Source of the DNA: Planctomycetota bacterium
GTDB taxonomy: Bacteria > Planctomycetota > Phycisphaerae > Phycisphaerales > Phycisphaeraceae
Assembly (NCBI GenBank): GCA_016350165.1
Contig: CP066225.1
Span: 4,588,001-4,652,000 of the forward strand
DNA: 64,000 bases
Direction: 5' to 3'
A model generated the notes under the pieces. That model saw nothing but the letters and a program-made list of their open reading frames with translations, searched no databases and had not been told where the DNA came from. Positions 8,284 through 58,063 of the stretch are shown one piece after another. Position 1 is the stretch's first letter; every line of letters begins with the position of its first letter. A program made the position numbers and the translations under genes.

Positions 8284-10029
8284 ATGAGTATTGAGCGACC
8301 AAAAGTACTGGTTTTTAAGGGACGTGTGACAGGCGACAAGAATGTAGCTGATCTTTTGGCTGATCATTTTGACGTCGATATTGTTACCACGATGGATGAA
8401 GCGCTTGAAGCGATGCGTACGGAATCCTTCCATGCGATTTATGCTGATACGGGCGACTTTCTGCCTTTGGAACGAGCGCTGGTTGGTGAGAAAGCATCCT
8501 TAGTGCTCAATACGATCGGCGAAGGTGTGCTGATCGTTGATGCTGATGGGCGATGTTCGTGGTCGAATACAAAAATGCAGGCTTTCGCTCCGGAGGTTGC
8601 AGAACACTCTAAACGTATTTGCTCGCAAGCACTTCACATCTTCTCCTCACTGATCGCTCGATCATCTTCTAAGCAAGCACCTCGTTCCAAGAAATTTACC
8701 TTCCAGGTTCATGACCGTTATTACGAAATGATCACATCGCCTGTGGTTGATGATTCAGGCAAAGTGCGTCAGGTTGTGGCTGTGGTTTGGGACGCGACAT
8801 CTGGCCGCAGATTGCAATCGAAGATTGATGCGATTGACTCAGCTGGTCGCGAGCTTGCACGAATTGAATCGGATGTTGTCGCTAAAGCGACGCCGTCTGA
8901 TCGTTTGAAGATTTTGCAGGAAAAAATCATCAAGTATTCGAAGGATTTGATGCACTTTGATCATTTCTCAATTCGTTTGCTTGATAAAAGAACGAATAAG
9001 TTAGAAGTGGTAATTTCTGAAGGTTTACCGCACGAAGCGCTTGAGATTGACCTTTATGCGCAACCTGAAGGTAATGGTATTTCGGGATATGTCGGTGCGA
9101 CAGGCCGTTCATATATTTGCCACGATACTGAAAAAGATTCACGTTATGTGATTGGTTTAGCTCACTGTAAATCGTCGTTGACGGTGCCACTGACATTGTT
9201 TGATGATGTTGTTGGTGTTTACAACGTTGAATCCGAGCAAGTGGGTGCGTTTACAGAAGAAGATCGTCAGTTTGCTGAGATCTTTGGGCGTAATGTTGCA
9301 CTGGCTTTGAATATTCTGGATTTGCTTGTTGTTGAACGTTACACAACATCAGGGCAGATTACAGATAACGTTGCTCAGGAAATGGCGCAGCCGATCAATG
9401 ACATCGTTACCGAAGCTCAAACACTGATGGAAGAATACATCGGTGATGATTCGATGCGTGCTCGTTTGAATCGAATTTTGGACAACGTTACATCGTTGCG
9501 TGATTCTGTTCGTGCTGTTACTGCTGGTCCGAAGGCTGTGCTTGGTACGGAGAAGGTGGCTGAGAAGATTGACGATCCTCATCTGAAGGACAAGAAGATC
9601 CTGATTGCAGATGATGAACCAAATATACGCCAGACGATTACGGATGTGCTGAAGAAACATGGTTGCAATGTGACATCATGTAAGGACGGCTACGAGGCAT
9701 GTTCACAACTTGAACAGCATCGTGACTTTGATCTGGTGATATCTGACATCAAGATGCCTTACCGGAACGGTTATGAGATTTTTGCAGCAGCGCAGCGAAC
9801 GCAGGATGAGCTGCCTGTGCTACTGATGACCGGATTTGGCTATGATCCGCACCACTCAATCGTGCGTGCATCTCAGGAAGGCTTATCGTCGGTGCTGTTT
9901 AAGCCGTTTAAGGTTGATCAGTTGATTGAGGAGGTACGCAAGGCATTGGGAATTACCGAGCCTCAGCTGCCACCTGCAGATGACATGTCTGAGTCGGAAG
10001 AGCAAAAAGATCGTGCGGCTTCCGAGTAA
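8284..10029 (+). CDS. PAS-GAF-receiver signalling protein without a kinase catalytic domain
   Basis: The protein has about 581 residues. Residues 7-60 resemble a degenerate receiver with a possible acceptor at Asp55. A PAS-like segment covers about 68-185. A GAF domain covers about 205-370. The stretch at about 375-425 is helical and sits where a histidine-kinase dimerisation helix would be, but it reads EMAQPIND and has no phospho-acceptor histidine, and no ATP-binding domain follows. A canonical receiver closes the protein (about 437-560), with the acidic pair ADDEP, acceptor Asp488 (VISDIKMP), Thr in LLMTGFG and Lys in LFKPF. I chose the ATG at 8284 over an upstream TTG. A partner kinase must act in trans. 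The output is unknown. Confidence 0.85.
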   Translation: MSIERPKVLVFKGRVTGDKNVADLLADHFDVDIVTTMDEALEAMRTESFHAIYADTGDFLPLERALVGEKASLVLNTIGEGVLIVDADGRCSWSNTKMQAFAPEVAEHSKRICSQALHIFSSLIARSSSKQAPRSKKFTFQVHDRYYEMITSPVVDDSGKVRQVVAVVWDATSGRRLQSKIDAIDSAGRELARIESDVVAKATPSDRLKILQEKIIKYSKDLMHFDHFSIRLLDKRTNKLEVVISEGLPHEALEIDLYAQPEGNGISGYVGATGRSYICHDTEKDSRYVIGLAHCKSSLTVPLTLFDDVVGVYNVESEQVGAFTEEDRQFAEIFGRNVALALNILDLLVVERYTTSGQITDNVAQEMAQPINDIVTEAQTLMEEYIGDDSMRARLNRILDNVTSLRDSVRAVTAGPKAVLGTEKVAEKIDDPHLKDKKILIADDEPNIRQTITDVLKKHGCNVTSCKDGYEACSQLEQHRDFDLVISDIKMPYRNGYEIFAAAQRTQDELPVLLMTGFGYDPHHSIVRASQEGLSSVLFKPFKVDQLIEEVRKALGITEPQLPPADDMSESEEQKDRAASE

Positions 10030-42152: not shown

Positions 42153-43049
42153 TTATTTGGTGGCGGTGATGTGGTAAGTGGAGATGACGTCAGAAGGTTT
42201 AGCGCCTTTGGGGAGGAGAGCTTGGAGTTGGTCGTAGCGTTCGTGTTTGAGTTCGTGGAGCGAATCGACGTAGATGGAGTGTTTGGCCATGGTGATATTT
42301 TTAAGGCCAGCGGCGAGCATGTTGTTCATGTAGGTTTTGATGGGGATTGCGCCGGTTGTGGAACCTACGAGATCTTCGGCGATGTGGAGGGTATCTGTTG
42401 GGAGGTCATCGATGAGTGCGATGTCGGCGATGGCGATGTGGCCTTTGGGTTTGAGGACGCGTGCAATTTCGGACCATGCTTGTGATTGGCTGGGTGAGAG
42501 GCTGATAGCGCCGTTGGAGATGATGACATCTATTGATTGATTAGGTATGGGCAGATGTTCGAATTCGGCAAGGCGGAATTCGACGTTGTTGAGGTTTTGA
42601 AGTTCGAAGTATTTTGCTTTGTTGTTGCGTGCTTTTGTGATCATCTCTGGTGTCATGTCGATGCCGATGACTTTGCCTTGGGGGGCGACTTGAGGGCCAG
42701 CGAGGAAAGAGTCGATACCTCCGCCGCAACCGAGGTCGAGGACGTTTTGGTTGGGTTGAAGGTTTGCGAATGAGAGGGGGTTGCCACAGGAGAGCCCCAT
42801 GTTTGAGCCGGATGGGAGTGTTGCGAGTTGATCGGGTGAGTAGCTGAGGAGTTGTGCGATGTGGTCAGCGGTTTCTTGTGAGATGTGGTGGTAGGATTGG
42901 TTTGTATCTGGGTCGAAGGTTTGTTTGAAGTAGAGGTCGCCTTGCCTTGGGGTGAGGTCGGGGCGAGAGAATAGTGCGGCGATGCGGTAGCCTTTGCGGA
43001 TGTATTCTTTGAGTTCAGCTTTTGTCGAGTGGTGTGGTTTGTAGATCAT
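42153..43049 (-). CDS. ArsM-like methyltransferase lacking the arsenic-binding cysteines
   Basis: The 298-residue protein is a paralogue of the next gene upstream. It keeps NMGLSCGNP (83-91), the SAM motif VLDLGCGGGIDSFLAGP and DMTPEMITKAR. However, the two catalytic cysteines of arsenite methyltransferases are replaced: the site in VIISNGAISLSP is Gly180, and the site in EDLVGSTTGAIP is Ser230. The N- and C-terminal cysteine pairs of the neighbour are also gone. It is therefore unlikely to bind As(III) the same way and may methylate something else. It is the last gene of the ars cluster, after a hairpin with a T run. Confidence 0.85.
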   Translation of the reverse strand: MIYKPHHSTKAELKEYIRKGYRIAALFSRPDLTPRQGDLYFKQTFDPDTNQSYHHISQETADHIAQLLSYSPDQLATLPSGSNMGLSCGNPLSFANLQPNQNVLDLGCGGGIDSFLAGPQVAPQGKVIGIDMTPEMITKARNNKAKYFELQNLNNVEFRLAEFEHLPIPNQSIDVIISNGAISLSPSQSQAWSEIARVLKPKGHIAIADIALIDDLPTDTLHIAEDLVGSTTGAIPIKTYMNNMLAAGLKNITMAKHSIYVDSLHELKHERYDQLQALLPKGAKPSDVISTYHITATK

Positions 43050-43100
43050 GATGTGTAATTGTAGGCGTGTTAATGGGGTGTGGTGGTGTTATATGGATGT

Positions 43101-43135
43101 AAAAAAACACCGGCTAATAGATGATTAGTCGGTGT
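43101..43135 (-). terminator. Terminator between arsM and its paralogue
   Basis: ACACCGACTAATC pairs with ATTAGCCGGTGT on the minus strand (43107-43135), followed by TTTTTT. Transcription of the downstream paralogue may need read-through or its own promoter. Confidence 0.75.
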
Positions 43136-43200
43136 TTGGGAAAGCGTATTTAAGTGGGGTTTCTCGTAGGAGTGAGTTGTTGAGTAATTGAACCTAAGTT

Positions 43201-44106
43201 TTAGCTGCTACAACAGCATGATTTGGCTTTGGTTGCGATGATATCGGCAGAGGTGATGTAGTCGGCTGGGGTTTCACCTTCTGGGAGTGCGTCGTTGACT
43301 TTGTCGTAGACTGGGGCTTTGAGTTTGGCCATGGTATCGATGTAGGCTGGCTTGGGATTAATTGTGATGTTGGTGAGACAGGCTTGCTGCATCATGTTGC
43401 GGTAGTCGTCCATGAGAACGGCGCCTGCAATGCAGCCGACCATTGCTTCGGCGAGGTTACGGATCTCGTCGGGGATTGGTTTATAGAGGATGATGTCGGA
43501 GGCAGCGACGATGCCACCGGGCTTGAGGACGCGAGCGATTTCCTGCCAAACTTGTGGTTTATCAGGTGATAGATTGATGACACAGTTTGAGATCACGACG
43601 TCGACAGAGTTGTCAGCGACGGGGAGGTGCTCGATTTCGCCGAGTCTGAATTCGACGTTACTGAGGCCTGTGTTTTTGGTGTAGGACTCAATGTTTTTAC
43701 GAGCTTTTGTGATCATTTCGGGTGTCATGTCGACGCCGATGACTTTACCTGTTTCGCCGACTTTGGGGCCAGCGAGGAAACAGTCGAAGCCGCCACCTGA
43801 GCCGAGGTCGACAACGACTTGGCCGTGCTTGAGGTTTGCAATGGCGGTTGGGTTGCCACATGAGAGGCCCATGTTTGCGCCTTCGGGGAGCGCTTGGAGT
43901 TCGTCGGTTGTGTAGCCGATTTCTTCGGCGAGTTGGTTTGCGGATTTAGTGGATGAACCGCAGCAGCCGTTGAAGGATGTGTCTTCTTCTGTGCTACAGC
44001 ATGAGACTGTTGATATTGATTCGAGTGATCCTGTTTCGGCGACTTTTTTGTAGCCGTCGCGGACGACGTTACGAATGGCTTCTTGTGATTGAGTTTTGTC
44101 AGTCAT
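43201..44106 (-). CDS. arsM: Arsenite methyltransferase
   Basis: The enzyme transfers methyl groups from SAM to As(III), giving methylated and finally volatile arsenicals. The protein has 301 residues. The SAM site is VVVDLGSGGGFDCFLAGP. The conserved catalytic cysteines are present: Cys83 (GLSCGNP), Cys175 (VISNCVINLSP) and Cys225 (MVGCIAGAV). Cysteine pairs at 36-37 and 48-49 and a CCC cluster near the end add further As-binding thiols. It follows arsC by about 100 bases with a dyad in between. Confidence 0.93.
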   Translation of the reverse strand: MTDKTQSQEAIRNVVRDGYKKVAETGSLESISTVSCCSTEEDTSFNGCCGSSTKSANQLAEEIGYTTDELQALPEGANMGLSCGNPTAIANLKHGQVVVDLGSGGGFDCFLAGPKVGETGKVIGVDMTPEMITKARKNIESYTKNTGLSNVEFRLGEIEHLPVADNSVDVVISNCVINLSPDKPQVWQEIARVLKPGGIVAASDIILYKPIPDEIRNLAEAMVGCIAGAVLMDDYRNMMQQACLTNITINPKPAYIDTMAKLKAPVYDKVNDALPEGETPADYITSADIIATKAKSCCCSS

Positions 44107-44124
44107 GATGAGACTCCTCGAGAA

Positions 44125-44144
44125 CTATTCAGTTGCATGAATAG
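44125..44144. promoter_or_regulatory. Dyad upstream of arsM, possible operator
   Basis: CTATTCA and TGAATAG flank a six-base spacer, 19 bases before the arsM start. The perfect seven-base arms suit an ArsR-type dimer or a short leader hairpin. Confidence 0.4.
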
Positions 44145-44207
44145 ATGTTGTTATCCGTTTGCTTACTGATCAATGTGTGTGATTGCGTATTGAGGATAAA
44201 ATGGTTG

Positions 44208-44663
44208 TTATGTTGTTTGATTTTTTAATGATTCAGGTAGTGTTTTGACAAATTCTTCGATTTGGTCGCGTACTCGACGGTAGTGATCGAGTGCTTTGTC
44301 GGGATCGGTTTCGTTGGCTGCGAGGGCAGGTGGGTCTTCGAATCCGACGTGGACGACAGCTGTTTTAGCTGGGAAAAATGGGCATGTTTCGTGCGCGTTT
44401 GAGCAGACAGTGATGACGAAGTCAAAGTCTTTTGTGGGGAGGTCTTCGACGGTGTTTGAGGTTTGTGAGGTGATGTCGATGGATTTTTCGGCCATGACTT
44501 TGATTGCGTTGGGGTTGAGTCCTTGTGCGACGATACCGGCTGAGTATGCATCGATGATGTCGGATTTGAGATGACGTGTGAGTCCTTCAGCCATCTGCGA
44601 GCGACAGGAATTGCCGGTGCAGAGGAAGAGTACTTTTAGTTTTGATTCTGTTTCTTGTAGCAT
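44208..44663 (-). CDS. arsC: Arsenate reductase, thioredoxin-coupled type
   Basis: The enzyme reduces As(V) to As(III). It has the low-molecular-weight phosphatase fold. The 151-residue protein from the ATG at 44663 has the P-loop CTGNSCR (15-21) with the nucleophile Cys15. The relay cysteine pair lies in VITVCSNAHETCPFF, as in the Staphylococcus and Bacillus enzymes. The start overlaps the arsR 3' end by 28 bases, with GGAAG upstream, so the two are translationally linked. An extended frame to 44702 is unlikely. Confidence 0.94.
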   Translation of the reverse strand: MLQETESKLKVLFLCTGNSCRSQMAEGLTRHLKSDIIDAYSAGIVAQGLNPNAIKVMAEKSIDITSQTSNTVEDLPTKDFDFVITVCSNAHETCPFFPAKTAVVHVGFEDPPALAANETDPDKALDHYRRVRDQIEEFVKTLPESLKNQTT

Positions 44664-45007
44664 GCGCTTAGGTCTTCCAGGTCCATGTCCATCACGCAAC
44701 AACGTTTTTGGAGGTCGCTTTTGATGGTGGGTTTATCTTGAAGGTTGGACAGGGTCCAATCGAGAATTTGTTTGATGTGTGGCTGTGGTTGTGTATGGAT
44801 ACGATAGTATTGCCACTTGCCTTGCTTGCGTTTTTCGATGAGGCCAGCGTCGAAGAGGAGGTTCATGTGCTTTGAGATTGTCGAGGGAGCTAATTTGAGG
44901 ATTTCGATGATCTGGCAGAGGCAGAGTTCTCCTTCGGTGAGGGACATGAGTGCCCGCACACGTGTTTCGTCGCTGAGCGACTTGGTTATTTTGATGAAAT
45001 CATTCAT
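44636..45007 (-). CDS. arsR: ArsR-family metalloregulator
   Basis: This 123-residue winged-helix repressor should release DNA when it binds As(III). The metal site motif ELCLCQI (Cys29, Cys31) lies at the start of the DNA-binding helix region. The recognition helix reads APSTISKHMNLLFDAGLIEKR. An extra KRCC near the C-terminus may contribute a third thiol. It is the first gene of the ars operon. A perfect dyad 42 bases upstream is a likely operator. Confidence 0.93.
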   Translation of the reverse strand: MNDFIKITKSLSDETRVRALMSLTEGELCLCQIIEILKLAPSTISKHMNLLFDAGLIEKRKQGKWQYYRIHTQPQPHIKQILDWTLSNLQDKPTIKSDLQKRCCVMDMDLEDLSACYKKQNQN

Positions 45008-45220: not shown

Positions 45221-45817
45221 ATGGGAAGGCCAAGTTTAAAAGAAGAGAAGCGGAAAGAGTTCATGCCGATTGTTGCGAGAACGTTTGTGGAGCTGGGGTA
45301 CAGGCGAAGTACGACGGCGGAGATCGCGAGACGGTGTGGTGTTCAAGAGAATGTTTTGTACAGGGTTTGGCCGAATAAGAAGGCGATGTTTCTGGCGGCG
45401 ATTGATTTTAACTATGAGGTGACGTCGGCGACGTGGCAAGCATTGTTGGAGAAGGCGGATGATAAGACGAGTCCGGCTGAGGTGATTTTGGCGCATGAGG
45501 CTGGGCATCATGGTGACTGGGGTTTGCACAGGTTGGCGTTTGCTGGTTTGAATGAGGTTGATGATGCAGAGATATTGGAATCGCTGCAGAATCTGTATGG
45601 GCGGTTCGTGAAGTTTATTATTGATGTGGTGAAAGAACATCGTGAGAGGATGGGGATGAAAGAAGGGGAGGGGTTGGATGTTGAGACGGTGGCTTGGTCA
45701 TTTGTTGGTTTGGCAACGGCGGCGGATATTGGACGTGATCTGAAGCTGCTTGGTTCGAAGAAGCGTTCGAAGTTGATGGGTGGTGTGGGTGATGTTGTGC
45801 TAAATGGTAAGGTTTGA
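45221..45817 (+). CDS. TetR-family transcriptional regulator
   Basis: The 198-residue protein has the TetR helix-turn-helix at residues 14-60 (ARTFVELGYRRSTTAEIARRCGV, then LYRVWPNKKAMFLAAI). The C-terminal ligand domain is variable and contains HEAGHHGDWGLHRLAFAGLNE. The effector is unknown. It is divergent from arsR, and the large DUF2339 gene follows by 78 bases on the same strand, so that gene may be its target. Confidence 0.88.
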   Translation: MGRPSLKEEKRKEFMPIVARTFVELGYRRSTTAEIARRCGVQENVLYRVWPNKKAMFLAAIDFNYEVTSATWQALLEKADDKTSPAEVILAHEAGHHGDWGLHRLAFAGLNEVDDAEILESLQNLYGRFVKFIIDVVKEHRERMGMKEGEGLDVETVAWSFVGLATAADIGRDLKLLGSKKRSKLMGGVGDVVLNGKV

Positions 45818-45895: not shown

Positions 45896-48800
45896 ATGGG
45901 TGTTGTGTTCTTCGTATTGATGATCATTTTGGCGATTGTGATCGCGGCGATTTACACGTTTTCTCAGGTTATTTCGCTGGGTATACGTTGTAAAAAATTA
46001 GAAGAAGAAGCGAGTCGGTTGCGTATGAAGTTAGATACGCAAGATCGTTCGATGCGTCAGATGGTGGGGTGGATGCGTGCGCATGATCAGAAGCATACAG
46101 AAGAGAAGGTGTTGCAGCGGCCGGCTGTTGTTGAAGCGGAGCGGGTGGTTGAAGACGTTGATGTTGTGGAGGAAGTGGCTGAAGAGGTTATGGCTACAGA
46201 TGGGGGTGTTGAGTCTGTCGTTGAAGAGGTTGTTGAAGAAAAGAAAGATACAAGGTCGATTGGGGATATGCTGCACAGGGCTGCTGAGAAGAAGCGAGGG
46301 GAGGAAGAAGGCGAAAAGGTTGAAGCGGCTGAGGAGCAGGTGAGTGGTGAGGTCGAAGAGGGTAAGGAAGAAGAGGTCGTTGAGCAGATTGAGGCGGAGA
46401 GTGAAGTTGAATATGCGCAGGTACTTGCGAAGGAGGCGGAGGAAGAGACATATGCGATTAAGCCTGCGGAAGAAGTAGAAGAAGTGGAAGCGGTTGATGA
46501 GGAAGTGGTGAGTGAGGTTGAAGAGAAGGATGAGGTTGAAGAAGAAGATGCTAGGGAAGAGATTGAGCGGATTGCAGCGTTTGGGCGGTCGGAACCGGCT
46601 GCAGAGCAGAAGCAAGAGCGGAGTGATGAGTGCCGGAAGCCGAGTTGGCAAGAAGGCGCGGAGCAACGGGGTCGGAGGAGTTCATCTAAAAATTGGGCGA
46701 TGTCGCAGCCGGTTGATATGGATGCGGTGAAAGAGAAGGCTAAACGCGGGTTAGAGGATCTGAAAGTTAATTTTGAAGAGCGTTTTGGTGCGCACTTGTA
46801 TTATTGGATTGGCGCGATTGCGGTGATGTTGGCTGCGGGGCTTGGGGCTAAATATGCGATTGATCAAGGGTATTTTTATAAGGAGTTGCGTGTTGCGTGT
46901 GGAGCGGCGCTTGGTTTGGGATTGACGGTGGTTGGGTATTTCATGGCGAACAAGAGCAGACGCATGGCGAATGCGTGTTGTGGTTCAGGTGTGTCGGTGC
47001 TTTATACGACGCTGTATATCACGCAACATAGTTATGGGTTTATTGACCAGTGGACGTGCTTTGCGGGGATGGCGGTGGTGACGGTGTTGGCGGTGTTGTT
47101 GTCGTTGAGGTTGGGGATTGCGACAGCGATGTTGGGATTGCTGGGCGGGTTTGCGACGCCGATGCTTGTGAGTGGTGGTGATCAGTCGCAGGAGATTTTG
47201 TTTGGATACCTGCTGCTACTGGAGATTGGGTTGGTGATTGTGGCAAGGCGACGAGGGTGGTTTGGGATTTCATTCCTGACGTTTGCGTGCTCGATGATAT
47301 GGGCTGTGTTTGGAATCTTTGTGAAGGATTTGGCGGATGGCGGGAAGGTGATGGGTGGGTTCCTGATCCTGTCGTATGTGGTGTATCTGGTGAATGCACT
47401 TGGGTTGCATCAGAAGGCAACGGGCGGGAAGCTGGTGAGGTTGTCGATTGGTGCGGGGATTGCGAGTCTGGTGCTGATGGGTGTGTTGGCGAGTGTGGTT
47501 GAATTTACGATGGTGGTCATGGGGATGATGTTGCTGCTTGGCGCGGGAATGATGGTGGTGGCAAGGTTGGATGATCGGCAGCGAATGCTAGGGTTGGCGG
47601 GGATGATGTTGAATTTGATGATGGTTGGTGCGTGGATGATGAGCGATCAGCCACATTTGGATGAGTTGATGCACTGGCAGTATCTACTGATTGTAAGTGG
47701 TGTTGGTGTAATTTTCTGGTTGGGTGGTTATGTCTGCAGTTTGGGACGAAAGCGAACGATTTACTGGTCGATACTGAGTAGTGTGATGCTAGTTTTGCTG
47801 ACGTTATTGTTTGATGTGTTCGGCAGGCAGGCGATTGATATTCATAGATGGATCATTGTGGTAGGGATGAGTGTGGTTGGGTGCGCTGGCGTCTATTGGA
47901 TGGTTAGACGGTATGGTAAATATCGGAGGTTTGATCTGGCTGCGGGTATTCAGGCGACTGGTATTGCGGCTGCGCTGATGATTAGTTCGTGGATGGATGC
48001 GGCTTTGCCTTGGTATGCAGTGTGGTGTGGAGGTGTGATGCTGGCGGCGGTGCTTGCGAGTGAGAAGTTTGGCAGAAGTGTGCTGCGGTATACGATTCGG
48101 GCGCTGAATGGTGCGGTATTGCTGGGCGTACTTGTGGGGGTTGCTGTTGCGAATCAGGAATTGGTTGCAGGGACGGTTGTGTTTAATGCGCTGCTTGGTT
48201 TCTGGGGCGGACTGGTGTTGCTGTACGGCTTGTCTGCTTGGCGACTGATGAAGATTGGCGAGGGCAGGATGAGCGGCGAGAAGCAGCTTGTAGGCTTAGT
48301 GCTGTTGCCTTTGGGGCTTGTGATGCTGGTGCATCATGGGTTTACGGGGATGGCATGGCGGGGCTTAACTGAGGCTGACTTGGGCGAATATGCTGTGATT
48401 AGTGTGGTGATTGGGCTGGCGGGGATGCTGGTGACGGTTGGCTGGCAGAAGTGGGCGAGAGTGTATCAGTTTGTGGGACAGGGCGGGATTGTTTATGCGT
48501 TTATGAGTGGCGTACTGGCGGTACTGTGCAGTTTGGTTTTGCTCAATCCGCTGCTTAGTGAACGTGGTGTCATGGGTAGTGGTGTACTTAGTTGGGTGAA
48601 GTACATTTGTATTTTTGGCGGCCCACTGCTGGTGATGGCGGGTAATGGTTATCTGATTGAACATAAACGCCTCAAAGAATTGCGACGCGCGTTTATCTGT
48701 ATGATTTTTGCGCTGCTTGGCGGGCTTGCGATTGTGCTGGTGCGTCAAGGGTTTGTTAATGGTGATATTCGTTTGAGTAGTTTGCGGCCTGGCTTGATTG

Positions 48801-50746
48801 AGTATGCGACGCATGCGATTGTTCTGATGTGTCTTGGTTGGGTTGTTGTGCGTGGTGAAGGATTTTTTGGAAGCGTGCGCGAGTATGTGAAACGTGGTGG
48901 TGTGGTATTTGTAGGTTTGGGTTTGGGATGCAGTGTTGTGTTCTGTTATTTGGCGGAGAATCCGTTGTGGACGATGATGAATGTCGGACCTTGGGTGCTG
49001 CTGAATTGGCTTGTTTATGTTTATGTTGTGCCGATGCTGATCGTTTGGGGGATCGCAAGAGAGTTGGGACGGTTTGATGAGGCGTGGCTGATTTGGGTGA
49101 AGAAGGTACTAACGGTTGTAGGCATTGTGATGCTTGGTTGCTGCAGTGTTTTGTTTGTCAGGCAAGGCTTTGCCGGCGGGGATATGCGGCTTTGGATTAC
49201 GAAACAAGACCTGTTTGAATTTGCGACTGATGGAATCGTTCTGATACTGCTTGGTATTGGTTTGCTGCAAATTACGCAGCGGTTCAGTAGTTTGCATGAG
49301 ATCGTGAAACGAAGCGGATTTGTTTATAGCGCGTTGGGTTTGGGCGTAATCTTCCTGTTCTGTGTGGTGGGAACGAATCCGATTTGGAATGCTGTGATGA
49401 TACGCGGCGTACCTGTGCTGAATATGTTGTTGTACGTTTATGTGCTGCCTGTGGCATTGACGGGTGTTGCGGTTTGGATGCTGAGCAGGTTTGAAGATGG
49501 ATGGATTCAAAAAGGCAGAGATGTACTTGCGAAAGCGGCGATGTTGCTGTTTGGGATTAGTGTGCTGCTGCTGGTGAGACAAGGTTTTGCTGGTGGTGAT
49601 ATGCGTCTATCTAATGTGAGGTTAGACCTGCATGAGTATGCGACGGATGGGATTATGATGATGGTGGTGGGATTGGTGATGCTTCATGTGTGGAAGTGGT
49701 TTGGTGGGTTTAGTGAGCTGATTAAACGTGGTGGTGTGGTGTTTGGTGTGCTGGGGCTTTTGATGGTGTTTGTATTCTGCGTGATTGGAAAGAATCCAGT
49801 TTGGCATACAACGGGTGTGTATGGAGTGACGGTATTTAATTCGTTGCTATATGTGTTTATTTTGCCAGTGATACTGACGGGGGTTCAGGTTTGGAGCTTG
49901 TCGAAATTTGATGATTGGTGGATTGTGATTGTCAGGAGGGTGCTGACGTATGCGGGGATGGTGTTATTTGGTGTGAGCGGATTGTTGTTGGTGAGACAAG
50001 GGTTTGCTGGGGAGAGGATGCATGTGGGGCGTGAGCCTGTGTCGTGGCTTGAATATGCGACGGACGGCATTGTGTTGATGATTGTGGGGATGCTGATGGT
50101 GCAGTTGCGTGAACTGTTTAAGGATATGAAGGAGATTGCGCGATTGGGTGGTGTTGTGTTTGGTTTGGTGGGATTTGGGATTGTGGCGTTGCTGTGCGGT
50201 GTGGTGAAGAATCCGCTGTGGGTGGATGTGAATGTTGGGAGCCTGCCGATGGTGAATTGGTTGGTTTATGTATATCTGCTGCCGGTGTTGATGTTGGGGG
50301 GATTGGTTTGGTTGATGAAAGATTTTAAAGATAAATGGATGGGTGTGCTGAATACAGTAATAGGAGTAATTAGTCTTGTGATAATGTTTGGCTGGCTGAC
50401 GATGGAGATCAGGCAGGCGTTTGTGGGGAACGTGATTGATATGGGAGTGGTTCATGTTGACCAAATGGAGAATTATGCACACTCGACGATGTGGGTTATG
50501 TATGCAGTGACGTTATTAGTAGGCGGTATTGTGCTGAAGACGGCGATGTTGCGATATGCGTCTTTGGTGATGATGCTGTTGAGTATTGGGAAGGTGTTTA
50601 TTTTTGATTTAGGGCATTTAGAAGGGTTTTTACGAGCAGGAAGCTTGCTGATGCTCGGGTTGACGTTGATGGCTTTGGGGCTTGTTTATCAGAAGATTGT
50701 GTTTGCAAGGCCTGCGGAAGAGAAAAAAGAAGAAGAATTTGTTTGA
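45896..50746 (+). CDS. Giant DUF2339 membrane protein with amplified C-terminal repeats
   Basis: The protein has 1616 residues and many hydrophobic segments. A membrane anchor (2-25) is followed by a coiled, very acidic Glu/Val linker (about 30-260). The DUF2339 core starts at about 298: HLYYWIGAIAVMLAAGLGAKYAIDQG and later LGLLGGFATPMLVSGG. The C-terminal half consists of repeats of about 139 residues, each carrying (V)RQGFAGGDMRL and EYATDGIVLM. The arginine of the RQGF motif lies at residues 950, 1089, 1228, 1367 and 1506, exactly 139 apart, and a weaker HHGF copy is at 813. Typical DUF2339 proteins of 600-1000 residues have one such module. The function of the family is unknown. Confidence 0.9.
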   Translation: MGVVFFVLMIILAIVIAAIYTFSQVISLGIRCKKLEEEASRLRMKLDTQDRSMRQMVGWMRAHDQKHTEEKVLQRPAVVEAERVVEDVDVVEEVAEEVMATDGGVESVVEEVVEEKKDTRSIGDMLHRAAEKKRGEEEGEKVEAAEEQVSGEVEEGKEEEVVEQIEAESEVEYAQVLAKEAEEETYAIKPAEEVEEVEAVDEEVVSEVEEKDEVEEEDAREEIERIAAFGRSEPAAEQKQERSDECRKPSWQEGAEQRGRRSSSKNWAMSQPVDMDAVKEKAKRGLEDLKVNFEERFGAHLYYWIGAIAVMLAAGLGAKYAIDQGYFYKELRVACGAALGLGLTVVGYFMANKSRRMANACCGSGVSVLYTTLYITQHSYGFIDQWTCFAGMAVVTVLAVLLSLRLGIATAMLGLLGGFATPMLVSGGDQSQEILFGYLLLLEIGLVIVARRRGWFGISFLTFACSMIWAVFGIFVKDLADGGKVMGGFLILSYVVYLVNALGLHQKATGGKLVRLSIGAGIASLVLMGVLASVVEFTMVVMGMMLLLGAGMMVVARLDDRQRMLGLAGMMLNLMMVGAWMMSDQPHLDELMHWQYLLIVSGVGVIFWLGGYVCSLGRKRTIYWSILSSVMLVLLTLLFDVFGRQAIDIHRWIIVVGMSVVGCAGVYWMVRRYGKYRRFDLAAGIQATGIAAALMISSWMDAALPWYAVWCGGVMLAAVLASEKFGRSVLRYTIRALNGAVLLGVLVGVAVANQELVAGTVVFNALLGFWGGLVLLYGLSAWRLMKIGEGRMSGEKQLVGLVLLPLGLVMLVHHGFTGMAWRGLTEADLGEYAVISVVIGLAGMLVTVGWQKWARVYQFVGQGGIVYAFMSGVLAVLCSLVLLNPLLSERGVMGSGVLSWVKYICIFGGPLLVMAGNGYLIEHKRLKELRRAFICMIFALLGGLAIVLVRQGFVNGDIRLSSLRPGLIEYATHAIVLMCLGWVVVRGEGFFGSVREYVKRGGVVFVGLGLGCSVVFCYLAENPLWTMMNVGPWVLLNWLVYVYVVPMLIVWGIARELGRFDEAWLIWVKKVLTVVGIVMLGCCSVLFVRQGFAGGDMRLWITKQDLFEFATDGIVLILLGIGLLQITQRFSSLHEIVKRSGFVYSALGLGVIFLFCVVGTNPIWNAVMIRGVPVLNMLLYVYVLPVALTGVAVWMLSRFEDGWIQKGRDVLAKAAMLLFGISVLLLVRQGFAGGDMRLSNVRLDLHEYATDGIMMMVVGLVMLHVWKWFGGFSELIKRGGVVFGVLGLLMVFVFCVIGKNPVWHTTGVYGVTVFNSLLYVFILPVILTGVQVWSLSKFDDWWIVIVRRVLTYAGMVLFGVSGLLLVRQGFAGERMHVGREPVSWLEYATDGIVLMIVGMLMVQLRELFKDMKEIARLGGVVFGLVGFGIVALLCGVVKNPLWVDVNVGSLPMVNWLVYVYLLPVLMLGGLVWLMKDFKDKWMGVLNTVIGVISLVIMFGWLTMEIRQAFVGNVIDMGVVHVDQMENYAHSTMWVMYAVTLLVGGIVLKTAMLRYASLVMMLLSIGKVFIFDLGHLEGFLRAGSLLMLGLTLMALGLVYQKIVFARPAEEKKEEEFV
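48332..50746 (+). repeat. Six coding tandem repeats, period 417 bases
   Basis: RQGF codons begin at 48743, 49160, 49577, 49994 and 50411. Each interval is exactly 417 bases. A first, more diverged copy (HHGF) starts at 48332. The repeats encode about four membrane segments each. Confidence 0.88.
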
Positions 50747-53914: not shown

Positions 53915-54688
53915 TTAGCCGACGGCAATGTTGGGTTGTTTGAGAAGGATGAAAACGATGGCTGCGAGCACGGCGCCGGTGATGGGGCCGAAAACGGGTA
54001 TCCATGAGTATGACCAGTCGCTGCCACCTTTGTTTTTTATGGGTACGAGTGCGTGGACGATGCGTGGGCCGAGGTCACGTGCGGGGTTGATTGCGTAACC
54101 GGTGGTGCCGCCGAGTGAGAGGCCGATCGCGAAAACGAGGAGTGCGACAGGAAGCGCTGAGAGTGAACCGATTTCGTTGCCTTCGATTGGGGCGGCGAGA
54201 TAGAAGACGCCAAAGACGAGTGTAAATGTGCCAATGACTTCGGAGATGAAGTTATTGGGGAAGCTTCGGATAGCCGGTGCGGTACAGAAAGTTGCAAGGT
54301 GTAAACCTTGGTCTTCAGTGCGATTGTAGTGTTGGTTGTACATTACCCATACAAGGAAAGCGCCGAAGGCAGCGCCGCACATTTGGCCAGCGACGTAAAC
54401 AGGTACACTTACCCATGAGAATAAACCAGCGGAAGCGAGCCCGATTGTGACGGCGGGGTTGATGTGAGCGCCACTATATCCGCCGACTGCGAAGACGCCG
54501 ACGAAGACGCCCATGGCCCAGCCGAAAGTAATGACGATCCAGCCTGAGCTGTTACCTTTGGTGTCTTTGAGGACGACGTTGGCGACAACGCCATCACCGA
54601 GGAGGATGAGTAGGGCGGTGCCGATGAATTCGGCTGTAAATTCCGTGATATATTCAGCAATATATTCAGTGATAAATTCTGTTGGCAT
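53915..54688 (-). CDS. glpF: Glycerol facilitator / aquaporin (MIP family)
   Basis: The 257-residue channel should pass glycerol across the inner membrane. Six membrane segments and both selectivity loops are present: NPAVTIGLA in the first half and NPARDLGPR in the second. The Asp after NPAR and the length of the second loop fit glycerol channels rather than pure water channels. GAGGTGA lies six bases before the ATG at 54688. The N-terminus carries an odd repeated pattern of about four residues (EFIT, EYIA, EYIT). It is the last gene of glpK-glpD-glpF. Confidence 0.92.
   Translation of the reverse strand: MPTEFITEYIAEYITEFTAEFIGTALLILLGDGVVANVVLKDTKGNSSGWIVITFGWAMGVFVGVFAVGGYSGAHINPAVTIGLASAGLFSWVSVPVYVAGQMCGAAFGAFLVWVMYNQHYNRTEDQGLHLATFCTAPAIRSFPNNFISEVIGTFTLVFGVFYLAAPIEGNEIGSLSALPVALLVFAIGLSLGGTTGYAINPARDLGPRIVHALVPIKNKGGSDWSYSWIPVFGPITGAVLAAIVFILLKQPNIAVG
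54620..54679 (-). repeat. Degenerate 12-base repeat in the glpF start region
   Basis: Five consecutive units of the type GAATWTATYRCN encode the acidic-aromatic N-terminus. They look like local slippage duplications. Confidence 0.6.
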
Positions 54689-54731
54689 CATTCACCTCAT
54701 AGAAATTAGAACTGGATCGAGTCTCTTCGAG

Positions 54732-56300
54732 TCAGTTCTTTGGTAAGTAATTTGTAGCGAGTTTGATGTAGTTGTTAATTTGTTGTTCAGCCCATGCTTC
54801 GTCTTTGTTGAGTGTTTGCCGCATGTAGTTTGCAACGTGTGGAGCCATGTCGATACTTGCGCGTGCGTCTAGGAGAAGAGCACGTGTACGTCTGGAGAGG
54901 AAGTCTTCGATGGTGCGTGTCATTTCTTCCTGAACTGCCCAGACTAGTTGACTGTGGCTAATGGGTAGTCGTTCGTCGATGTAGTTTGCTGATTCGGGAT
55001 CTTCGTTTTCGATAGATTTGATGTAGGACGCATCGCTGCCGTACATTGCAAGTGATGAACGTTCGATGAGTTCCTGACTGTAGCCGTGGATTGGGAGATT
55101 GTGTGTATTGCAATCTTTGTGTTCTAGATCGGCGATCATGATGGTTTGATCGATGGTATCTTGCGCCATCTTTCGATAGGTTGTCCATTTACCGCCGGTG
55201 ACGGTGACAAGGCCTGAGCGTGAGATGTTGATGGTGTGGTCACGCGAGATTGCTGCGGTGTTTTTGTCATCGCCAGCATGAGTTACGAGAGGACGTATAC
55301 CTGCAAAAACGCTGAGAATGTCTGTTTCTTTAGGGTCTTTTGTGAGGTACTGCGAAGATGTTTTTATGAGGAAGTCGATTTCTTCCTCAAGTGCGATTGG
55401 TTCAATGGGGATGTCATCGAGTGGTGTGTCAGTGGTGCCGACGAGGACTTTGTCGTGCCAAGGGATGAGGAAAATAACGCGTCCATCACTTGTTTTTGGA
55501 ACCATGATTGCGGTGTCGCCGGGTAAGAATTCTTTGTCGAGAACGATATGAATACCTTGGCTGGCTTTGATCATGGGCGAGGCTGATGAGTCATCATTGA
55601 GTCGGAGTTGATCTGCGAATGGGCCGGTTGCGTTAATGACAGCTTTTGCTTTAAGCTCGTATGTTTTGCCTGTTTCTTTGTCTTCAGCTGTTATGCCTTT
55701 GACAAGTTCGCCCTCTTTAATGAGCGATTTCGCTTCCATGTAATTAATGATGACTGCACCGTGTTCGATAGCTGTTTGTGCAAGGTTGATTGCTAGGCGA
55801 GAGTCGTCGAATTGACCGTCGTAGTAAATGGTGCCGCCACGTAAACCGTCTTGTTCGAGAGTAGGGATGCGCTCGAGTGTGTGATCTTTTGAGAGATGTT
55901 TTGATTTACCGATTCCGAGTTTACCTGCCATGAGATCGTATATTTTCATACCGATGCCATAGAAGGGTGCTTCCCACCAATCGTAATTTGGAACAACAAA
56001 GGGAAGTGGATGAACGAGATGTGGTGCGTTTTGGCAGAGAAGACCGCGCTCTTTTAGTGCTTCAAGAACGAGTGTCAGATTACCTTGCTGTAAGTATCGG
56101 ACGCCACCATGAACGAGTTTTGTACTACGGCTGGAAGTTCCGTATGCGAAGTCTTGTCTTTCAATGAGTAGAGGTTTGTAACCTCGCGCAGCAGCATCGA
56201 CGGCACACCCTAAGCCAGTTGCTCCGCCGCCAACAATGATAATGTCCCAAGTGTGATCCCCTTGAGCAGCAAACTGCTCGAGCATTGTGTCGCGATTCAT
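54732..56300 (-). CDS. glpD: Glycerol-3-phosphate dehydrogenase, FAD-dependent
   Basis: The enzyme oxidises glycerol 3-phosphate to dihydroxyacetone phosphate at the inner membrane and feeds electrons to the quinone pool. The 522-residue protein opens with the FAD-binding dinucleotide motif IIIVGGGATGLGCAVDAA. It continues with YGTSSRSTKLVHGGVRYLQ, VVNATGP-like and VTGGKWTTYRKMA. A C-terminal helical domain with RRTRALLLDARAS follows. GGAG lies upstream of the ATG at 56300. It is the middle gene of the glp operon. Confidence 0.96.
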   Translation of the reverse strand: MNRDTMLEQFAAQGDHTWDIIIVGGGATGLGCAVDAAARGYKPLLIERQDFAYGTSSRSTKLVHGGVRYLQQGNLTLVLEALKERGLLCQNAPHLVHPLPFVVPNYDWWEAPFYGIGMKIYDLMAGKLGIGKSKHLSKDHTLERIPTLEQDGLRGGTIYYDGQFDDSRLAINLAQTAIEHGAVIINYMEAKSLIKEGELVKGITAEDKETGKTYELKAKAVINATGPFADQLRLNDDSSASPMIKASQGIHIVLDKEFLPGDTAIMVPKTSDGRVIFLIPWHDKVLVGTTDTPLDDIPIEPIALEEEIDFLIKTSSQYLTKDPKETDILSVFAGIRPLVTHAGDDKNTAAISRDHTINISRSGLVTVTGGKWTTYRKMAQDTIDQTIMIADLEHKDCNTHNLPIHGYSQELIERSSLAMYGSDASYIKSIENEDPESANYIDERLPISHSQLVWAVQEEMTRTIEDFLSRRTRALLLDARASIDMAPHVANYMRQTLNKDEAWAEQQINNYIKLATNYLPKN

Positions 56301-56365
56301 ACAGATCTCCGTGTAATGACCAACCATCGCACATTACATGGACCCACCCCGAAAGAATCTATGAC

Positions 56366-57859
56366 TTAAACCTCGTTTGCCCAACCTTTGGACCTGTTTA
56401 GTGCACTGGTCCAAGATTGGCGTAGTTTGTCTGAGTCAGCGGGTGTGATTTTTGGTTCAAATCTTTGATCAACAGACCATTGTTTTTGAATTTCAGCGAC
56501 ATCAGACCAGAAGCCAGTTGCAAGGCCTGCGAGGTAAGCAGCACCGAGAGCCGTGGTTTCTTGAACGGTCGGTCTGACGACAGGTATGCCGAGGATATCG
56601 GTTTGAGTTTGCATGAGCAGGTTATTGACAGTTGCGCCGCCATCGACACGCATTTCGGTGATGTTGATGTCTGAGTCTGATTTCATAGCCATCATGAGGT
56701 CGTCGACCTGGAATGCGATGCTATCGAGTGCGGCACGACAGATGTGAGCGGCAGAGGTGCCACGTGTGATGCCGATGATGAGACCACGTGCATATGGGTC
56801 CCAATGTGGTGCTCCAAGGCCAGCAAAGGCTGGGACAAGATATACGCCACCACAGTCGGGGACGGAGGCTGCTTTGGCTTCAATCTCTGAGGAACTGCTG
56901 ATGATGCCTAGTTCATCACGAAGCCATTGGACGACGGCGCCGCCGATAAAGACGCTGCCTTCGAGTGCGTATGTTGTTTTGCCGTTGATTTTCCATGCAA
57001 CAGTTGTGAGTAGTTCGTTGCTAGATTTGATTGCCCGATCACCTGTGTTGATGAGCATGAAACAGCCTGTGCCATAGGTCGATTTGATCATGCCGGGCTC
57101 GATACACATTTGGCCAAAGAGAGCGGCTTGCTGATCACCAGCTATACCAGCGATGGGGATTGGTGTGCCGAGATTGTTGCCGGAGGTGTTGCCGTAGACT
57201 TCAGACGATTCTCTGATTTCGGGTAGCATTGAGTCGGGGATGCCAAGGATGTCGAGAAGTTCTTTGTCCCATTCACCTGTGTGGATGTTGTAGAGCAGGG
57301 TGCGCGATGCGTTTGTTGGGTCGGTGATGTGTAGATCGTAGCCTGTGAGGTTGTAGATGAGCCACGAGTCGACTGTGCCAAAGGCAAGCTCTCCAGCTTC
57401 AGCCATTTTCCGTGCGCCTTTGACGTTATCGAGTATCCACTTGATTTTTGTGCCTGAAAAATAGGGGTCGAGACGCAAACCTGTTTTATCGATAAATGCT
57501 TGCTCGTGCCCTTCGTCGATTAGCTTTTGGCAAATGTCAGCGGTGCGGCGATCTTGCCAAACGATTGCGTGGCAGATCGGTCGGCAGGTTTTTCTGTTCC
57601 ATACAACGGTCGTTTCACGCTGATTGGTGATTCCGATGCCAGCGATGTCCTGAGTGGTGAGTTGGGCTCTGGCGATGGCTTCTGAGGCTACACTGACCTG
57701 TGAGGACCAGATTTCGTCAGCGTCGTGCTCGACCCAGCCAGCTTTGGGGTAGTGTTGAGTGAATTCTTTCTGGGCGACGGAGTGTATTTGGCCGTTGTGG
57801 TCGAAGAGGATTGCACGTGAACTGGTAGTTCCCTGGTCAAGAGCGAGTATGTAGTTCAT
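56366..57859 (-). CDS. glpK: Glycerol kinase
   Basis: The enzyme phosphorylates glycerol with ATP, which traps it in the cell. The 497-residue protein shows the FGGY family motifs: [16 protein letters not shown] at the start, [21 protein letters not shown] with the catalytic Asp, and [18 protein letters not shown]. The ATG at 57859 begins the family domain. The frame to 57979 has no homologous sequence. It is the first gene of glpK-glpD-glpF, divergent from the IclR gene. Confidence 0.96.
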
Positions 57860-57929
57860 AGAAATTCTCTCTATATTTTGGGCAAGGACCGATTTGAGAG
57901 ATCCTGCGATCAAGCGTGAATACTTAAAA

Positions 57930-57944
57930 GACAATCGGGTTGTC
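57930..57944. promoter_or_regulatory. Candidate operator in the glpK/iclR divergent promoter
   Basis: GACAA and TTGTC flank TCGGG. A second, looser TTGT/AACAA dyad follows at about 57963-57979. They sit 70-120 bases upstream of glpK, where an IclR regulator would be expected to bind. Confidence 0.4.
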
Positions 57945-58063
57945 GTTGCGTGCGAGATCAATTTGTCAGTTGATAACAATCTTCAAGCTCTGTGCGCATC
58001 AAAGTCAAGCTTTAGAGGACAAGAATCTGCTTTTTTGGCGTTGATCTGTGTTGAAATCTAGGT

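Follow-up and report, generated by a model that had tools for sequence, protein, structure and literature searches.

A DUF2339 membrane protein of Poriferisphaera heterotrophicis contains a tandemly repeated 139-residue unit whose copy number differs among relatives

Within the window, that is, the whole stretch of 64,000 nucleotides analyzed here from the marine planctomycete Poriferisphaera heterotrophicis ZRK32 (genome of 5,234,020 bases), we found a gene for a DUF2339 protein in which one 139-residue unit is repeated four times end to end, between a diverged copy and a terminal module. Each unit is predicted to consist of four transmembrane helices, and the number of units varies among related proteins, even within genera. 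We give about an even chance to the reading that this is an inner-membrane protein of the Arc3A type, in which a solenoid that handles lysophospholipids was lengthened by tandem duplication of the unit. To our knowledge, it is uncommon for a many-helix membrane protein to grow through successive duplications of one small block. In other bacteria, the wider family gives protection against membrane-damaging lipids, and such protection may be tuned here by how many blocks the protein has.

The gene (45896..50746, + strand) encodes 1616 amino acids and scores 343 bits as a whole protein against PF10101 (E 5e-102), above the Pfam cut-off of 33.6 bits. No second DUF2339 was found in a scan of the genome, and neither PADLOC nor NCBIfam returned a family. 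Profile positions 2–606 were aligned at residues 299–851 and positions 449–658 at the C-terminal end, with positions 342–604, 389–581 and 438–580 matched again in between; from core through terminal module, the protein follows the order of the profile. It begins with a membrane anchor (residues about 1–22; 45896..45961, +), which is the top hydropathy peak (3.23) and in which no lipobox or lipidation motif was seen by eye. Then comes an acidic low-complexity linker (residues 46–285; 46031..46750, +) with 75 D+E and 34 K+R among 240 residues, predicted to be cytoplasmic. The preliminary description of this DNA had included such a linker, which does exist, although at the N terminus and not between the repeats. 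The N-terminal membrane core (residues about 299–689; 46790..47962, +) lies in the best stretch of the Pfam match, and is followed by a degenerate unit 0 (residues about 690–798; 47963..48289, +), which was placed by homology and has approximate limits. In relatives, the unit profile matches the segment that precedes the first unit (hhalign P 1.2e-13), while in the window protein itself unit 0 reaches only about 4 bits. Repeats throughout the N-terminal core were also considered and rejected, as profile comparison in relatives returned unit 0 alone (next E 0.23).

The remaining part of the protein carries six recognised units, all on the + strand: a diverged first unit with an HHGF motif (residues 799–939; 48290..48712), units r1 (residues 940–1078; 48713..49129), r2 (1079–1217; 49130..49546), r3 (1218–1356; 49547..49963) and r4 (1357–1495; 49964..50380), and the terminal module with RQAF (1496–1616; 50381..50743), which is 59% identical to that of Poriferisphaera corsica. 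In total, 42 hydropathy peaks were counted. The preliminary description had claimed an exact 139-residue amplification with RQGF in five copies and a sixth diverged one. RQGF does start at residues 950, 1089, 1228 and 1367 and HHGF at 813 (window base 48332), but residue 1506 opens an RQAF. Moreover, that last copy represents the standard terminal module of the family, also found in the unit-bearing relatives. The HHGF copy is real but diverged, with 31 bits against the profile of the four units and 44 bits against the family-wide unit profile. The terminal module is 7–12% identical to the other units in fixed register and scores 68 bits against the family-wide profile over profile positions 1–94.

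The word "exact" holds for the spacing and not for the sequence. Residues 940–1495 form four 139-residue units whose end-to-end alignment has no gaps, with identities of 36–50% in protein and 52–60% in DNA; each of r1–r4 scores 203–217 bits against the profile built from them. At an offset of 139 residues, 177 of 417 positions in the repeat region are identical. Full shuffles (n=2000) gave 35.6 ± 5.5 identities with a maximum of 57, and shuffles within blocks of ten, which keep the hydropathy pattern (n=2000), gave 45.9 ± 6.1 with a maximum of 67. The best other offset between 60 and 260 (138–140 excepted) reached 13% identity. Among r1–r4, first codon positions are 46–57%, second positions 64–78% and third positions 40–53% identical; these are therefore old copies under constraint at the level of the protein. 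A recent tandem duplication at the DNA level was rejected on account of the DNA identity given above and of Tandem Repeats Finder, which reported no array.

The constant length had been attributed to selection, and this attribution stands in part. The spacing of 139 is common to the window protein and P. corsica (residues 362 to 501), but it is local: 88 unit spacings in the unit-bearing set span 129 to 150 residues with a mode of 132 (35 of 88). Units of this set seldom change much in length, and 139 is the value in Poriferisphaera. Exact spacing was found in one other protein with at least four intervals, that of genome G018, where 131 occurs four times (L037:2643-6851).

We determined copy number with a profile that was seeded with the four units of the window and extended over four rounds. 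Searches with the window protein matched 28 of 61 genomes, those with PF10101 matched 122 of 298 genomes of the class, a family scan matched 21 of 51 genomes, and a collection of named genomes supplied 58 DUF2339 loci. Duplicates, ORFs at contig edges and proteins with fewer than 820 residues or fewer than two recognised units were left out, and 58 intact proteins were obtained. Across phyla, two units are the usual number (41 of the 58 proteins), followed by three units in nine proteins, four in four, five in three and six in one, the window protein. In the family scan its open frame was also the longest (1618; next 1406). Median hydropathy peaks were 25, 29, 35, 37 and 42 for two, three, four, five and six units, medians that rest on 45, 10, 2, 3 and 1 ORFs, respectively.

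Copy number differs within three of the four genera that could be counted in at least two species. These are Poriferisphaera (six units in P. heterotrophicis and four in the broken gene of P. corsica), genus g19 (5, 4, 4 and 3 units in G019, G336, G333 and G334) and genus g8 (4 and 2 units in G340 and G008); in genus g21 both species have 3 units (G021 and G229). A quick tree was made from core plus terminal module of 38 of the 58 proteins, namely all with at least three units, all from genomes with a G handle and 14 others. This tree, in which 15 of 35 forks are open, requires copy number to have changed at least 14 times. The amplification proposed earlier thus holds, with units that align well and a copy number that differs among DUF2339 relatives. 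The accompanying statement that DUF2339 proteins carry one such module comes close for ordinary unit-bearing members, which have one internal unit plus the terminal module, with a degenerate unit also preceding this pair. For instance, the two-unit protein of Planctomycetales bacterium ZRK34 (L118, 882 aa) shares core, unit 0, internal unit and terminal module with the window protein, but has one internal unit versus five.

The DUF2339 gene of P. corsica (genome G001, 4,291,168 bases) reads as three ORFs and, being broken, stands outside the set of 58. The breaks are an in-frame TAA at L036:7264-7266 and a frame change at about 8933-9021 beside a run of G; they may reflect a pseudogene or an assembly error. 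The pieces hold four units, the third of which is split by the second break. In metagenome bins (L151 and L157), DUF2339 genes are likewise split over two or three neighbouring ORFs, the pieces together carrying three units. The unit profile detected no internal units in 52 of 121 DUF2339 ORFs, fragments included, and since it is blind to internal units in distant DUF2339 proteins, expansions there may be missed. Three such distant proteins (L092 of G109, L090 of G235 and L089 of G267) have 1146–1213 aa and 33–36 hydropathy peaks and no strong units, that of G109 having 1146 aa and 36 peaks; they are possibly separate expansions.

A tree of 75 units over 109 columns, in which 37 of 72 inner branches are open and the bootstrap is not settled, joins the terminal modules in one clade (100/100). 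The diverged first unit of the window protein pairs with the first unit of P. corsica (100/99; 51% identical). Units r1–r4 fall together with one unit of P. corsica in a clade (99/95) apart from those of other genera, with r2 and r3 closest (50% identical; 100/94). Two units of the G049 protein group by protein (99/96), and so do three units of G019 (98/96). In G018, no such grouping is seen among the four internal units, in spite of the regular spacing of its five copies. The first internal unit of P. corsica scores best against r4 and r1, and both halves of its second and last internal unit score best against r4, so r2 and r3 are likely an extra pair relative to P. corsica. Because the units of Poriferisphaera, G049 and G019 group by lineage, duplication was repeated and separate, although gene conversion within a protein could produce the same grouping. 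The repeated duplication claimed in the preliminary description is therefore supported by the tree, as well as by the range of two to six units among relatives.

Predicted topology places the repeated motifs on one side of the membrane. In the model of the window protein, K and R account for 32 of 175 loop residues on one side and 15 of 266 on the other, and in the L118 model for 28 of 140 and 8 of 212. The RQGF and NP-W loops are predicted to lie on the side poor in K and R, the periplasmic one; for L118, a count of 19 helices starting at the linker leads to the same side, provided that the linker is cytoplasmic. The most conserved unit positions (E in 82/86, N in 80/86, P in 85/86, Y in 71/86, N in 73/86, P in 80/86 and R in 69/80) all fall within about eight residues of loops on this side. 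The R-E-NP-N-Y cluster is present in all four repeated units of the window.

AlphaFold2 modeled L118 residues 120–882 with pLDDT 86.8 and pTM 0.78 and window residues 640–1616 with pLDDT 75.3 and pTM 0.57, the latter with pLDDT below 50 at residues 790–923, the diverged unit. In Foldseek, neither model had a match in the PDB with E below 0.001. With VIA, the top match of L118 was the designed repeat 7rdr (Z 15.8, rmsd 17.7 over 408 residues), and about two units of the window protein (residues 1245–1509) matched the designed 6e9z (Z 13.1, rmsd 4.7, 224 of 225 residues). Designed helical or circular tandem repeats (5cwm, 6e9z and 7rdr) are made of stacked helical hairpins, and their likeness to the window protein is one of arrangement only. 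VIA also listed chains of the ESX translocon (Z 10.3–10.8, window residues about 919–1275), retromer, importin and others, and we take these further matches as common helical arrangements; the absence of a fold from such lists does not count against it. These comparisons weakly suggest that the units may stack as hairpins into an alpha-solenoid within the membrane, although a Z near 13 may reflect a common arrangement only. A search of solved structures by sequence gave nine weak matches, the best to 'HBC599 membrane protein binder' (E 0.0018). Eight of the nine fell in profile positions 1–159, and the one at 446–546 is the cytochrome b-245 light chain (E 0.65).

Homologues of Arc3A are defined by PF10101 and vary in helix number (PMC8926400), and the window protein, falling under this Pfam family, belongs to the Arc3A family as defined there. 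Arc3A of Pseudomonas aeruginosa, with 35 predicted helices, protects the cell from the phospholipase Tle3 and prevents the build-up of lysophospholipids (PMC8926400); protection against lipase effectors has been confirmed (PMC12663445). In PMC8926400, Arc3A made no contribution to the regeneration of PE from LPE and left the stability of LPE unchanged when there was no attack, which tells against a lipid-handling role. Its mechanism is called unknown there; the helices may sequester lysophospholipids or act on the phospholipase, and the authors postulate that helix number and density are tied to the mechanism. Both proteins share the Pfam family and a very large number of helices (35 versus 42 peaks), a likeness drawn at the level of the family. 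Unlike Arc3A, the window protein has a TetR neighbour and shows no lipidation motif by eye. Arc3B (PF13163), a partner that only some members of the family have and that co-precipitates with Arc3A in Pseudomonas (PMC8926400), had no match in the window genome, in a search that also matched none of 14 control genomes. Another member of the family, a Gracilibacterium DUF2339 protein of 990 aa (PMC6851277), is similarly helix-rich, with 32 helices predicted, as compared by description only; no repeat is described in the available text of that paper. Likewise, the available text of PMC8926400 describes no ladder of copy numbers for a four-helix unit in Arc3A, and a limited search of the DUF2339, Arc3A and PF10101 literature, as far as its accessible text goes, returned no such ladder with change inside genera. 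The family and its varying helix number are thus known, and the ladder of units differing within genera was not found in print.

In full, the reading as an Arc3A-type solenoid runs as follows. The C-terminal half has grown through tandem duplication of the 139-residue unit, and the units are predicted to stack, hairpin upon hairpin, as a solenoid that forms a wall within the membrane. Every unit would put one polar cluster (R, E, NP, N and Y) at the periplasmic face, and this cluster, together with an adjacent groove, would hold the head groups and tails of lysophospholipids. The wall would then gather damaged lipids for turnover, by enzymes of the LplT-Aas type where these are present, and extra units would add sites or lengthen the wall. 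We infer a lipid role, as the best-supported guess at the mechanism, and a benefit of extra units, and only tentatively propose the full version, an intramembrane alpha-solenoid with one lysophospholipid docking site per unit, in which unit number tunes the capacity for membrane repair. The natural series from two to six units, differing inside genera, offers a direct test of whether protection scales with units.

The same series may also have arisen neutrally, if a stack that tolerates units gains and loses them by unequal recombination and copy number drifts with function unchanged. The frequent differences between close relatives are in line with such drift, as is the predominance of two units across phyla. 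But the units have stayed open and all four in the window have retained the R-E-NP-N-Y cluster through a long divergence, with second codon positions conserved well beyond third ones, and we regard neutral growth as a possible but rather doubtful account. The size-adjustable scaffold of the preliminary description, here a scaffold or fence serving other membrane proteins, would suit the solenoid-like stacking, the long acidic linker and the co-precipitation of Arc3A with Arc3B in Pseudomonas (PMC8926400). It appears unlikely, as the residues with the highest conservation make up a polar cluster that recurs at the membrane face and fits a small ligand, and as four heterologous Arc3A proteins worked in P. 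aeruginosa in spite of a divergence that the authors expected to preclude specific contacts with partners (PMC8926400). Published experiments on the family indicate a defence against lysophospholipids instead (PMC8926400). That highly diverged homologues still protect also speaks against the units recruiting or blocking phospholipase toxins directly instead of binding their products, an alternative named in the discussion of PMC8926400 that we consider very improbable here.

The gene neighbourhood touches on regulation and on lipid turnover. A TetR-family regulator (45221..45817, +; PF00440, 39.5 bits) lies 78 bp upstream of the DUF2339 gene, and relatives of it adjoin DUF2339 in P. corsica, G019 and G030, upstream in G336 and downstream in G340. 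The six genomes with this adjacency, window included, all have at least four units, a count uncorrected for kinship. A TetR relative is absent from the flanks of G018, G049 and G333, which also have at least four units, and in the flanks examined none stands beside a DUF2339 with fewer than four.

In some relatives, DUF2339 is adjoined by a gene whose product combines MFS, acyltransferase and AMP-binding domains (Pfam); we read this fusion as putatively of the LplT-Aas type, and it lends some support to the lipid reading. Its MFS-acyltransferase half was found at E below 1e-80 in 24 of 298 genomes of the class, in 20 of the 24 in frames longer than 1100 aa. DUF2339 is also present in 15 of the 24, and among the matches listed the two share contig and strand in nine of the 15, with matches separated by 35 bp to 2.9 kb; the wider gaps consist mostly of the fusion's own second half. 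They are apart in five others, and in G286 the place of DUF2339 is not among the matches listed. The nine linked genomes belong to three families only (two in f6, five in f20 and two in f24) and hence do not count as nine independent events; of them, the f6 pair alone is unit-bearing. A further 58 genomes match the LplT-Aas half weakly (E 1e-20 to 1e-45), with no adjacency in the comparable ones. Among 76 unique loci of the flank set, a gene of this type stands beside DUF2339 in four, three downstream and one upstream. It does not stand beside the DUF2339 of the window, whose neighbours are the TetR gene and sulfate-assimilation genes; the nearest thing to it in this genome is an unlinked MFS-acyltransferase fusion of 641 aa. 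Elsewhere in the window, two methyltransferases, a protein of the low-molecular-weight phosphatase type and an ORF that looks ArsR-like by eye lie at 42153-45007 (−) and are probably concerned with arsenic handling. Genes for a major intrinsic protein, an FAD-dependent oxidase of the glycerophosphate type and an FGGY kinase (Pfam) lie in a row at 53915-57979 (−), and probably form a glycerol-use cluster.
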